DNA from: Glandiceps talaboti
Taxonomy: Eukaryota; Hemichordata; Enteropneusta; Spengelidae
Assembly: GCF_964340395.1 (NCBI RefSeq)
Contig: NC_135552.1
Location: 28,322,181 to 28,386,180, forward strand
Length of the DNA stretch: 64,000 nt
Reading direction: 5' to 3'
A program made the position numbers and the translations under genes. The notes beneath the pieces were generated by a model. The model made no database searches and was not told the DNA's origin. It was given only the letters and a program-made list of their open reading frames with translations. This document shows, in pieces, positions 6,832-64,000 of this stretch; position 1 is the first letter of the stretch; every line of letters begins with the position of its first letter.

Positions 6832-23150
<16,319 letters not shown>

Positions 23151-32900: not shown

Positions 32901-35257
32901 ACAACAAACTCAACTTTTACAGAAGAGGATATGAAAAATGAGTTCCAAAGCTACGTTTTATTTATTGATGTAGCAACTAATGGATATGCAATATCATGTC
33001 TGGTACCGCAGAATTTTTCTTTCGACAAGGCGTGAAGGAACAGCAATCTAAAGTTTTGCCTTTATTGAAGGCATTCAGTTTACATCTGATATAAACACAT
33101 TGTTGATCAATAGCATAGCATCAATTGAATGGTTACTATACAACGTTATGTATTCGAGTGAATAGACCCAATTATTTTTATTCAAAACTACTCGCGCCAT
33201 TATGTCGTATGCATTGTCTACGTTTCTACTAGTATAGCTATTTGGGTGGCGTTACATGTCAATTCAAAGGAACAACATGAATAGACGTGTTCTCCGCTGT
33301 TACATTTGATTACGTTATTTCATCGAAATTCTAAAATAAAACATGATCAAGGACAATGTAGTATAAAATAAAGATGATAAATTCAGTATCTGAAGAATAT
33401 CTTTTATAATATTTCAAAGGAACAATATGAATATATGCATATTTAGTTTAGTTATTCAGCGTGAAGGCACTCTTACATTCGATTACGCAACGAACTTCCT
33501 CTTGGTCAGTCATGAATAAAGGTTGAAAGTAACAGCAGAGACAGATTCTAATGTACCACCCAACCCCAACCCACCAGAAAATAGTATCTTGAATCAAATT
33601 TTATTGCATTGTTAGCTATCATTCCACGTGTTTTAGTACTCAAAGAAAATCTGACATTCAAATCCTCAACGTAAACGTCTCATACACAAATAACTTTCAT
33701 TGCTTGGAATAAGTAGTCACATGCCAACTTGATGACTAAGTCTATCTCATTTTGACACATTGCAAAGTGGGAAATTAATAAGCACTCATGAAATGCCTTT
33801 AACAACGATTCATTTACTTTTTAATATGATATTTCTACAGAACGTAGAGGAAGAACTGCATACAGAACAAATAACAAAAATACCGCCAATGTAGTTGTAG
33901 CACAACTGTACAGTTTTTAAAAATGCTAACATGCGAACAATAAGTGTTCATTTGGTGAATGACTATCCAGTTGCCTATCCAACCATGTTGCTATCTTTAC
34001 GATATATGCTATCATTTGGCTGTTGCTATGAATGTGGTCTTGTTGCTAGGCATATTTACATACATTTTTTGAATGTTTATTCAATTGTCTATTAATCCCC
34101 TTTGTTATCTTTGCAATATATGTGATCATTTGGCTGTTGCTATGGGCGTGGTCTTGTTGCTAGGCACACTTGCATACATTTTTTGAATGTTTATTCATTT
34201 GTCTTCTGTTCCTGTTGTTATCTTTGCAATATATGTGATTATTTGGCTGTTGCTATGGGCGTGGTCTTGTTGCTAGGCATATTTACATACATTTTTTTGA
34301 ATGTTTATTCAATTGTCTATTAATCCCCTTTGTTATCTTTGCAATATATGTGATCATTTGACTGTTGCTATGGGCGTGGTCTTGTTGCTAGGCACATTTG
34401 CATAAGTTTATTCATTTGTCTTTCTATTCCTGTTGTTATCTTTGCAATATACATGATTATTTGGCTGTTGCTATGGGCGTGGTCTTGTTGCTAGGCAAAT
34501 TTACATACATTTTTTGAACGTTTATTCAATTGTCTATTAATCCCTGTTGTTATCTTTGTGAAATACACGACCGTTTGGCTGTTGCTATGGGCGTGATCAT
34601 GGTTACTACGGTATTTACATACATTTTTTGAATGTTTATTCATTTGCCTACCATATGATGTTGTTATTTGACCAAAATATACTGCCATTTGGTTGTTGCT
34701 AAGGGCGTGGTCATGGTTGCTAGGGCCAATTTTGTCAAAATGTTTTGAAGAATAACATGCAGAAACATCTCACCAAGTTTCAGACTCGGTGACCAAGTAC
34801 TTTTTGAGATATAAGTTTTTGACCAAAAATGAACATTTTTACACCTAATTTGCATATCACTCATGGAATCATGGTATGCTTAATATTTCTTTGTCCATAC
34901 ATCCCTAGATACATTCCCATTAAATTTCAGCCCAATCTGCTCAGTAGTTTTGGAATTATAGATTTTTAACCAAAAAGACACATTTTTAGCCCTAATTTGC
35001 ATATCACTGATGGAATCCTCCCGTCATGGACAAATCTTACTTTACATCCCCTTAAGAATGTTCCCACCAAATTTCGCACCAATCTGCCCAGTAGTTTCTG
35101 AGTTTAAGTTTTTTGACCAAAAATCACATTTTTTTACCCAAATCACACATCTGTGATGCGATCATTTTGATTTGAACAATTTCCCAACTAGACACCCAGG
35201 GTAATGGACCCACCAAATATCATGGCAATCGGTTCAGCAGTTTTTGAGTTTAAGTTG

Positions 35258-42504: not shown

Positions 42505-42580
42505 ATTGTTGTATGAACCATGAACCCTATACACGTAGGGTCTATGTATGAACCATGAACCCTATACACGTAGGGTCTAT
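42505..42580. repeat. Detached two-unit copy of the 35-bp satellite
   Basis: Two units of GTATGAACCATGAACC followed by CTATACACGTAGGGTC lie about 180 bp before the main array and are separated from it by a MITE. Confidence 0.93.
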
Positions 42581-42584
42581 GTTA

Positions 42585-42765
42585 GACTCTCTCACAGTCC
42601 TCGAAGCTTCGCATAAATAGCTAAAACTTGGGTTGTTTTGTGTGTATCTACTGCATAATTGTACTTGCATACTAGTATCCCAGTATCCCTAACCCTGTAC
42701 TGTGCGCCCTCATCGATCACATAGGGCTAACATTTTGTTGATGTGTTAGGCGAAGCCTCGTAGGG
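42585..42765. mobile_element. MITE of the 31.5-kb family inside the satellite
   Basis: Begins TCTCTCACAGTCCTCGAAGC and ends near GGCGAAGCCTCG, an inverted pair. Its middle (GTACTGTGCGCCCTCAT, TAGGGCTAA) matches 31528-31834. It sits between two blocks of the 35-bp satellite, so it either interrupted the array or the array grew around it. Confidence 0.65.
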
Positions 42766-44215
42766 TCTGTGTATGAACCATAGACCCTATACACATAGGG
42801 TCCGTGTATGATCTATAGACCCTATACACGTAGGGTCTATGTATGAACCATGGACCATATACACGTAGGGTTTGTATATGAACCATAGACCCTATACACG
42901 TAGGGCCTATGTATGAACCATAGACCTTATACACGTAGGGCCTATGTATGAACCACAGACCCTATACACGTAGGGTCTATGTATGAACCATAGACCCTAT
43001 ACACGTAGGGCCCGTGTATGAACCACAGACCCTATACACGTAGGGTCTGTGTATGAACCATAGACCATATACACGTAGGGTCTATGTATGAACCATCGAC
43101 CATATACACGTAGGGTCTGTGTATGAACCATAGACCCTATACACGTAGGGTCTGTGTATGAACCATAGACCCTATACACGTAGGGTCCGTGTATGAACCA
43201 TAGACCCTATACACGTAGGGTCCGTGTATGAACCATAGACCCTATACACGTAGGGTCTGTGTATGAACCATAGACCCTATACACGTAGGGTCTGTGTATG
43301 AACCATAGACCATATACACGTAGGGTCTATGTATGAACCATCGACCATATACACGTAGGGTCTATGTATGAACCACAGACCCTATACACGTAGGGTCTGT
43401 GTATGAACCATAGACCCTATACACGTAGGGTTTGTATATGAACCATAGACCCTATACACGTAGGGTCTGTGTATGAACCATAGACCATATACACGTAGGG
43501 TCTATGTATGAACCATAGACCATATACACGTAGGGTCTGTGTATGAACCATAGACCCTATACAAGTAGGGCCCGTGTATGAACCATAGACCCTATACACG
43601 TAGGGTCCGTGTATGAACCATAGACCCTATACACGTAGGGTCCGTGTATGAACCATAGACCCTATACACGTAGGGTCCGTGTATGAACCATAGACCCTAT
43701 ACACGTAGGGTCCGTGTATGAACCATAGACCCTATACTCGTAGGGTCTGTGTATGAACCATAGACCCTATACACGTAGGGTCTATGTATGAACCATAGAC
43801 CCTATACACGTAGGGTCTGTGTATGAACCATAGACCCTATACACGTAGAGTCTGTGTATGAACCATAGACCCTATACACGTAGGGTCTGTGTATGAACCA
43901 GAGACCCTATACACGTAGGGTCTGTGTATGAACCAGAGACCCTATACACGTAGGGTCCGTGTATGAACCATAGACCCTATACACGTAGGGCCCGTGTATG
44001 AAGCATAGACCCTACACACGTAGGGTCTATGTATGAACCAGAAACCCTATACACGTAGGGTCTGTGTATGAACCATAGACCATATACACGTAGGGTCCGT
44101 GTATGAACCATAGACCCTATACACGTAGGGTCTGTGTATGAACCATAGACCCTATACACGTAGGGTCCGTGTATGAACCATAGACCCTATACACGTAGGG
44201 TCTGTGTATGAACCA
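42755..44215. repeat. 35-bp hairpin minisatellite, about 41 units
   Basis: The unit is TATGAACCATAGACCC followed by TATACACGTAGGGTC(C/T)(G/A)TG. Each unit holds GACCCTA and TAGGGTC separated by six bases (TACACG), so every unit can form a 7-bp stem. Sequence variants (CTGTG, CCGTG, CTATG; CCATATAC) recur in blocks, suggesting higher-order amplification. The repeat has no stop codon in some frames because 35 is not divisible by three; those frames are artefacts. It lies between the two BHMT genes. Confidence 0.97.
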
Positions 44216-60677: not shown

Positions 60678-62651
60678 TTACTTCCTTCGGGATCTGAGTA
60701 CCAATCCTACAAATGCTATAAGTCTGTACACAACCAGTAATGCCAATGTCAAGTATATATTAACCATGAAGTTGTCCTGCAGAAAAATTAAAAAATAGTG
60801 AAAATTTACTGTAAAGTGATGTTTTCATGTTTACCTAATGTTTGATTCTTCCTTATTTTAGTTTTAGTGGGAGGTTCGGCTAACAATTTGATATTTTTTA
60901 GATACTTTGAATTATTTTCTTTTTGTTAAACAATGTCATAATTGTAACTGCATGTTTAATCAATCAATTAATTAATTAATTATGTGTAATAGTGTAATTG
61001 ACGACAATCCGTGACTTCAGCCAATATTCCGATCTGTCTGGACTAGCTTTCTTGTTTACTTTAAACCAGATTTGCTCAATTTGTAGCTATTTGTGTATAC
61101 ACAAACAAATACCCCCCCCCCCCCTCACCCGAAAGGATTAGATTCATAATAATACATGTAGTAGGTTTTCAGTATCTACTACATGACGTGAGCTTTTCTA
61201 TATACAACAAAAATATAATATACTTACAATACTATTACCTATAGCACACTTTATAATCCTCTGAGTAATAGACCACTTTGTAATTCTCTTATTTTTAGTT
61301 ATATTAATTTATATTGATGCTTTCAAATGAAGTACAACGTGGTCTGAAGGGCTATAGTTTGCAGACATTAGCATGTGGTTGTGAAACTTCATCCAGAGTT
61401 ACATCTCTTCTTTTTTTTAACATGAAAATGGAACTAAATTTAGAGTACTTATATAGGAAAGAAGAAAGATATCCTACCACAGAGAACGACAAACTGGCGA
61501 GTACAGTTTCACCATCATTGATACATGGGACAGCGGTATTATTAGGACAGGCTGAAAACAAAACAAAGAAAACATGAGACTTCTTCCTTTTTTTCTGAAG
61601 ATTGCCACTTTTTATAACTTGTTCAAACTGCACAGAATGCAGATTGTGGTCTTTTATCATGAAGACCTATGCCATCTTAAAAACGACACGACCACATTTT
61701 AGAAAAAAAACTTGACCCAAAATCTTTACCCCTTGTGGAACGTGTATTTTTGATAGGACAAATCTGCAACAGTAGTATGCACAATCAATAATAGAGCAGT
61801 GCACCATGGGACAAAATCCTAACATGGTTGTTGACTTGTTACAGTACACACTGCGTGAGACACTTGCCTTGCCTATGTATTTGTCAAATATTGAAGTACT
61901 CCTCCCCCCACCCACTTCCCCCTCCCCCACTCCTGTGTATACCAAAGCCTGAACAGTGTGACCATCATATCTACTAACAACATTTCACGGAAATATAAGA
62001 AAATTTACCAAAATTATATTTTAAAGTGAATTTAGACAATGAATTTGTAAGCATATGGGTAACCAGGATTGGGGATGAGTGCTACAATACAAATTGCAAG
62101 TTCTTACATGTTAGTCACAACAGATAGATCAGTTTCTCTTTTGAAACAACACATGGTAGGTACAACACCATATATAATGCAAAATTCCACAAATGAAGTG
62201 CACGACAATGACATATTCATCAGGCATAGAAATACAAAACAGCAATGTACAAATCTATTCATAACCAATTCTGTATTTACAGAATTTCATTTACATTTTG
62301 TAAATCAGTCAATTCCAATATAATCCCTTTAGCAGTACATAATACAATTTTACCATGCATTTAATACTGAGTATAATGGCATTATATATGAATTGTTATC
62401 AGTTGTTGCTGTTTGTATAAAATTATTTAAGAAAGAATTTAGAAAATTTTACTTCCTATATATGCTATACAAATCCTATCTCTTGACAGAAAATGTGTAT
62501 TGTTATCCTTTGACATAAACAATATGATTGGATGATAATAGTTGATTTACCAATATATGTGATGTCTTCCCATTGGTTGATTTCTAGGCACTCATAGGTG
62601 TATTTAAACCAGGATATATACTGAAGCCATATAAAGTATACTGGGATGTCA
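60678..62651 (-). CDS. White-type ABCG half-transporter, last three exons (partial)
   Basis: ATP-driven membrane exporter of the ABCG subfamily; only the C-terminal membrane part lies in the window. Minus-strand exons are 62651-62551 (101 nt), 61551-61478 (74 nt) and 60776-60678 (99 nt, stop TAA), with phases 2, 1 and 0 all agreeing. The first encodes DIPVYFIWLQYISWFKYTYE and then INQWEDI, the family's conserved (I/V)PVYFKWLSYLSW and INQW signature. The second encodes the extracellular loop with two cysteines (ACPNNTAVPC) and DGETVL. The third encodes the last membrane helix (VNIYLTLALLVVYRLIAF) and a basic end, RSRRK. It resembles the C-terminus of insect White; the substrate cannot be told. 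The ATP-binding half should lie beyond the right edge. Confidence 0.9.
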
Positions 62652-64000
62652 CTGTAAGACAAATACATCACATATAAAGTATACTGGGATGTCACTGTAA
62701 GACAAATACATCACATATAAAGTATACCGGGATGTCACTGTAAGACAAATACATCACATATAAAGTATACTGGGATGTCACTGTAAGACAAATACATCAC
62801 ATATAAAGTATACCGGGATGTCACTGTAAGACAAATACATCACATATAAAGTATACTGGGATGTCACTGTAAGACAAATACATCACATATAAAGTATACT
62901 GGGATGTCACTGTAAGACAAATACATCACATATAAAGTATACTGAGATGTCACTGTAAGACAAATACATCACATATAAAGTATACTGGGATGTCACTGTA
63001 AGACAAATACATCACATATAAAGTATACTGAGATGTTACTGTAAGACAAATACATCACATATAAAGTATACTGAGATGTTACTGTAAGACAAATACATCA
63101 CTTATAAAGTATACCGGGATGTCACTGTAAGACAAACCAATACATCACATATAAAGTATACTGGGATGTCACTGTAAGACAAATACATCACATATAAAGT
63201 ATACTGGGATGTCACTGTAAGACAAATACATCACATATAAAGTATACTTGGATGTCACTGTAAGACAAATACATCACATATAAAGTATACTGGGATGTCA
63301 CTGTAAGACAAATACATCACATATAAAGTATACTGGGATGTCACTGTAAGACAAATACATCACATATAAAGTATACTGGGATGTCACTGTAAGACAAATA
63401 CATCACATATAAAGTATACTGGGATGTCACTGTAAGACAAATACATCACATATAAAGTATACCGGGATGTCACTGTAAGACAAATACATCACTTATAAAG
63501 TATACTGGGATGTCACTGTAAGACAAATACATCACTTATAAAGTATACTGGGATGTCACTGTAAGACAAATACATCACATATAAAGTATACTGGGATGTC
63601 ACTGTAAGACAAATACATCACATATAAAGTATACTGGGATGTCACTGTAAGACAAATACATCACATATAAAGTATACTGAGATGTCACTGTAAGACAAAT
63701 ACATCACATATAAAGTATACTGAGATGTCACTGTAAGACAAATACATCACATATAAAGTATACCGGGATGTTACTGTAAGACAAATACATCACATATAAA
63801 GTATACCGGGATGTCACTGTAAGACAAATACATCACTTATAAAGTATACTGGGATGTCACTGTAAGACAAACACATCACATATAAAGTATACCGGGATGT
63901 AACTGTAAGACAAATACATCACTTATAAAGTATACTGGGATGTCACTGTAAGACAAATACATCACATGTAAAGTATACTGGGATGTCACTGTAAGACAAA
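62652..64000 (-). repeat. 43-bp minisatellite of splice-acceptor units
   Basis: About 31 units up to the window edge. Read on the minus strand, each unit is TGACATCCCAGTATAC, then TTTATATG, then TGATGTATTTGTCTTACAG. The last part is the 3' splice site of the adjoining ABCG exon and the first part is that exon's first 24 bases. Units vary at a few positions (CCCGG, TCTCAG, AAGTG), but ACTGTAAGAC on the plus strand, the acceptor, is unchanged in every unit I read. It lies in the intron upstream of the exon ending at 62651. Confidence 0.93.

Follow-up and report, generated by a model that had tools for sequence, protein, structure and literature searches.

Tandem arrays that copy an intron–exon border are known in amphioxus as 'mirages', the original paper reportedly being Canestro 2002 NAR. 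Published accounts place such border arrays in the globin genes BflGb6 and BflGb9 and in Adh3 (PMC3087553), with PGBD5 and TnC as additional cases (PMC3902484). The globin paper describes these arrays as unstable in length, and its authors suggest from Adh3 data and globin RT-PCR that regular splicing is undisturbed (PMC3087553). For PGBD5, regular splicing over the repeats is an assumption of the authors, and copy number differs between two lancelet assemblies (PMC3902484). Two polymorphisms of human CBS also involve a splice border: a 31-bp VNTR, c.1444_1467+7(16_21), with alleles of 16–21 copies, and 844ins68, a 68-bp duplication of the intron 7/exon 8 border, in the presence of which splicing strongly prefers the more distal site and yields normal mRNA (PMC2630376). 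The same paper terms the 844ins68 sites donor, while a study cited there is titled on 3′ splice sites (PMC2630376). The first-pass annotation of the locus described below had held that such an arrangement had no standard description, a claim that these precedents show to be wrong.

We analyzed a 64,000-nt stretch (the window) of the genome of Glandiceps talaboti, an acorn worm of the phylum Hemichordata, corresponding to positions 28322181-28386180 of contig C5 in an assembly of 590 Mb and 47 contigs. On the minus strand, at 62628..64000, lies the in-window part of a 43-bp minisatellite (TRF: period 43, 31.8 copies, 96% matches), which was also delineated by unit parsing and pattern search. 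With adjoining DNA added, TRF follows the array past the window edge to coordinate 64280, for 38.2 copies overall, in agreement with the earlier estimate of about 31 copies continuing beyond the window. Each unit reads TGACATCCCAGTATACTTTATATG + TGATGTATTTGTCTTACAG on the minus strand, with 24 bases of the exon start and then 19 bases of intron that close with an acceptor, and the start of the exon at 62651-62551 equals the consensus unit over 24/24 exon bases. The composition first proposed for the unit, an acceptor plus the first 24 coding bases of this exon, is therefore borne out by the unit parse.

The Glandiceps array is a striking new example of the known mirage kind, in a phylum new to it as far as searched; a full-text literature search in one library found no report of a hemichordate mirage. 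Its units combine an intron end with the adjoining exon start and carry splice signals, although a definition that included a cephalochordate host would leave this hemichordate array outside. Like the amphioxus mirages, it consists of minisatellite-like tandem copies spanning an intron–exon border, many amphioxus copies bearing AG/GT signals, and, as in BflGb6, the duplicated segment joins an intron's 3′ end to the 5′ part of the exon. In contrast to BflGb6 (6 and 3 copies in haplotypes) and PGBD5 (2-7 copies, for two repeats in two assemblies), the Glandiceps array comprises 38 copies of a 43-bp unit, and it further departs from the amphioxus mirages in its phylum, its gene (white/ABCG) and its occupancy of most of an intron. 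Units of the CBS VNTR likewise span a splice border, with 24 exon and 7 intron bases by its notation, but that notation places the repeat on the donor side, whereas the Glandiceps array lies on the acceptor side; for the CBS VNTR polymorphism was measured, whereas the Glandiceps array is known from one assembly. A splicing effect of the CBS VNTR is reportedly the subject of Lievers 2001. A border is also duplicated in CBS 844ins68, but in two copies only and over 68 bp. With the Glandiceps array, the mirage phenomenon appears to be carried from amphioxus to a hemichordate, and 38 near-identical acceptors within one intron offer a natural experiment on how the spliceosome chooses a 3′ splice site among equals.

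The array resides in a white-type ABCG gene. Our gene model comprises 16 exons, with 16 acceptors ending in AG, 15 donors starting with GT and an open frame free of internal stops; exon borders were refined by eye and by script, and splice sites were picked with the frame in mind. Most upstream exons were placed by tblastn using open frames from NZ_CP137710.1, which we take to be fly white. This entry is labelled an E. coli plasmid yet bears a fly-like white gene, presumably resembling a laboratory fly vector. The resulting 532-aa model is identical at every residue to the NCBI entry 'protein white-like [Glandiceps talaboti]' outside two missing parts, namely residues 1-107 and an internal stretch of 39 residues. 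With the NCBI protein as query, a first exon was located near 88585-88262; two small exons, one near 73098-73012 and the other near 72890-72864, account for nearly all of the missing internal stretch. The ABCG assignment made at first reading is upheld by the NCBI name and by TIGR00955 (pigment precursor permease; E 2e-213), against which the partial 532-aa model scores 710.4 bits, below a curated cut-off of 736.35 that applies to the whole protein. The model can also be aligned to structurally solved chains of ABCG1 and ABCG2 and shares 86% protein identity with Ptychodera flava and 83% with Saccoglossus kowalevskii. As sole query, the 90-aa C-terminus gave no match in Pfam, PDB or the protein database, but it does match TIGR00955.

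Adjoining the array is an exon of 101 nt (62551..62651, minus strand; T/GAC...ATT/G) that encodes DIPVYFIWLQYISWFKYTYECLEINQWEDITYI, the same residues being present in the NCBI protein. It is followed on the same strand by a 74-nt exon (61478..61551) and by the last coding exon of 99 nt with the stop codon (60678..60776). Outside the window, the preceding exon (64516-64411, minus strand) ends at 64411 with ..FLNT plus AA, and the donor GTAAGT at 64410 begins an intron that extends 1759 nt to the last acceptor, 62652..64000 being its in-window part. Since only the first 156 of these 1759 nt precede acceptor 1, the array makes up most of the intron. Two further acceptor-like sites, TCTCACAG and TTTCTTAG, lie in the non-repeated intron sequence that precedes the array, at about 64364-64331.

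The frame was read for all 38 acceptors of the array. Acceptor 38 (TTTGTCTTACAG; 62652..62663, minus strand) is the sole one that keeps the frame open and continues into the next residues of the NCBI protein. The junction in that protein is FLNTN-DIPVYF, identical in Ptychodera and represented by FLNTS-DIPVYF in Saccoglossus, and the NCBI model may have been built from protein homology alone. A stop is met from 37/37 upstream acceptors, in 32/37 cases after Asn plus 14 residues and in the remaining five at total lengths of 14, 23, 23, 32 and 45 residues; an added length divisible by three, as with acceptors 35, 32 and 29, does not avoid the stop. The first-pass annotation had anticipated both outcomes, predicting a stop about 14 codons after use of the next acceptor and a transporter from the exon-nearest acceptor only, and by frame acceptor 38 alone does lead to the transporter. 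Stops reached from upstream acceptors lie 172-1735 nt ahead of the last exon junction, farther from it than the limit of roughly 50 nt in the mammalian decay rule.

Parsing from acceptor to acceptor yielded 37 units, of which 34 measure 43 nt; the other 3 carry a GGTT insert and measure 47 nt. The consensus sequence is found in 15/37 units, 13 distinct sequences occur among the 37, and the 34 units of 43 nt show a mean pairwise difference of 3.0%. Invariance, first ascribed to the acceptor bases at large, holds for the AG itself, which is kept in 38/38 acceptors, but not for its surroundings, as TTATAG is read in 2/38 and the GGTT insert precedes three. In the 34 units that measure 43 nt, with the three of 47 nt left out, 6/24 exonic and 2/19 intronic positions vary; the difference is not significant (Fisher P = 0.27) and gives no significant sign of selection on the acceptor part of the units. 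By reading, five of the six variable exonic positions would alter an amino acid, as expected of untranslated copies. A search of the 590-Mb assembly for a 33-base core pattern gave 27 occurrences, 27/27 inside the 43-bp array, compared with 0 for a reversed control.

We consider it likely that the Glandiceps array is a mirage in the amphioxus sense, that is, a minisatellite formed by tandem duplication of a 3′ splice site, near-neutral and with the last acceptor used. The edges of the array provide a clue to its origin. Leftward of acceptor 1, 26 bases match the next unit with one mismatch inside, and rightward of acceptor 38 the first 24 exon bases agree with those of the previous unit; as 26 + 24 = 43 + 7, the array equals 38 copies plus exactly 7 nt, with TTATATG at both outer edges. 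This is the expected trace of a tandem duplication between direct repeats in intron and exon, and the 7-base microhomology straddling the border, in which the likely origin step is visible, points to a route for the initial duplication of the border. The ancestral intron would have been short (about 156 nt), with one TTATATG that began 26 bases upstream of the exon and a second at exon bases 18-24, such that the heptamers stood 43 bp apart. Slippage or microhomology-mediated repair between the heptamers may have copied the intron–exon border, and further local duplication would have brought it to 38 copies, the upstream ones turning into intron. That the array grew by duplication of this border had been proposed at the outset, and the parsed units, as border copies of 24 exon and 19 intron bases, fit that proposal. 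Furthermore, adjacent pairs of identical non-consensus units number 4 versus a shuffle mean of 0.92 (P 0.009), with 10 versus 6.6 for all identical neighbouring units (P 0.056). Non-consensus variants common to neighbouring units support growth by local duplication and suggest turnover of the array.

For a mirage of this kind to leave the transporter intact, the spliceosome would still have to pick the last copy. Over -20 to +3, 28/38 acceptors are identical, and sequence alone therefore gives no reason for the last to win; over -35 to +10, 13/38 are identical, the last included. Besides its AG, the last unit has a stretch rich in pyrimidines and, judged against the branch-point consensus, two weakly matching A's (CTTTAT at -23 and TGTGAT at -16). 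Acceptor 1 has similar A's plus others at -33, -39 and beyond in unique sequence, which if anything favour acceptor 1. Both first-AG scanning and first-transcribed-first-spliced models would favour upstream copies. Concealment of copies by RNA structure was rejected, as the predicted fold of the last four units together with the exon is no more stable than that of shuffled sequences (z -0.57; 51/200 shuffles at least as stable). Particular to the last copy is its neighbourhood of an exon body and the donor GTAAAT, which makes exon definition the most likely selector. With a real exon body and donor only beside the last copy, exon definition probably outweighs the 37 look-alikes, and the precedents of amphioxus globin and human CBS 844ins68 point to regular splicing there. 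Any leakage to upstream copies would produce an early-stop message, a candidate for nonsense-mediated decay, and the array itself, most likely without effect or mildly deleterious, would be tolerated and would vary in length.

An alternative, put forward in the first-pass annotation as a splicing decoy or copy-number dial, is that the array acts as a splicing brake, in which 37 acceptors compete, a sizeable share of transcripts is degraded and copy number sets output. We regard such a brake as unlikely, and our analysis lends the decoy or dial no support. In its favour, the AG, pyrimidine-rich stretch and weak branch-point-like A's of the last unit are common to most units, every upstream choice ends in a stop, and amphioxus mirages are described as unstable in length (PMC3087553). 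However, a 43-nt unit at this border would yield stops without selection, and the acceptor part of the units shows no significant constraint (P 0.27). The precedents also argue against a brake, in that undisturbed regular splicing is reported by the amphioxus globin and Adh3 authors (PMC3087553) and splicing of human CBS 844ins68 strongly favours the more distal site (PMC2630376). A copy-number-tuned version, in which 37 decoys divert white transcripts and a fast-changing array sets the transporter made per animal, strikes us as quite improbable; if it were true, array length would set each animal's transporter amount.

It is very unlikely that the true locus has few copies and that its length was misjudged in assembly, by expansion or collapse. 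Tandem arrays are error-prone, and PGBD5 copies differ between the two lancelet assemblies (PMC3902484), but the 13 distinct sequences among 37 units, the three units with a 4-nt insert and the variants common to neighbours argue against such an error. So do 12 TRF rows (some overlapping) of at least 10 copies and period at least 15 in 200 kb of random stretches. Competition among 37 sites could also have destroyed splicing altogether, making the locus a dying gene copy, whether pseudogene or null allele, but we find this extremely improbable given a 532-aa model without stop or frameshift, its identity to two other hemichordates (86% and 83%) and the listing of the protein by NCBI. The first-pass annotation had named a pseudogene beforehand as a finding that would overturn its proposal; judged by these sequence features, the white-type gene appears intact and not a pseudogene.

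Returning to the mirage reading, a genome rich in minisatellites most likely produced the array as a side effect that is tolerated. In 20 random 10-kb stretches of contig C5, 9.8% of the sequence is minisatellite (period 10-200, at least 3 copies), with 4680 N bases kept in the denominator, and arrays there reach up to 102 copies. Minisatellites account for 10.2% of the focal 97.8-kb stretch and for 22% of the gene's introns, the 43-bp array included. One of the 32 white splice sites tested lies inside an array (the donor of the first exon being approximate), and under independent random placement at 9.8% at least one of 32 sites would be hit with probability 0.96; TRF lists no array at the two small exons, whose four splice sites lie outside the 32. 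With about 10% minisatellite DNA, a splice site within an array is unsurprising and needs no special purpose. Exon hits of ABCG paralogues lay within 15 nt of an array in 0/16 cases (three stretches, 30 kb, 4518 bases N), which gives no sign, at these paralogues, of a general tendency in the Glandiceps genome, and by-eye inspection of the open reading frames crossing 13 other arrays, picked from 50 TRF rows in the window, revealed no clear exon border.

Other repeats were noted nearby. A 31-bp array of 68 copies, outside the window at about 64594-66723, occupies much of the white intron that precedes the one with the 43-bp array, with a degenerate TGTC array coming after it; CTGCAG or CCAG is present in the 31-bp units, and their array stops about 77 nt before the acceptor of its intron. 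Within the window are a 35-bp array of 41.6 copies (42759-44215), with a two-copy array of equal period at 42510-42582, and a 114-bp array of 6.6 copies (33986-34724), for which a 228-bp period is reported as well. Two long open frames of 194 and 165 aa, on the minus strand at 13296-14375, resemble the end of a LINE-type reverse transcriptase.
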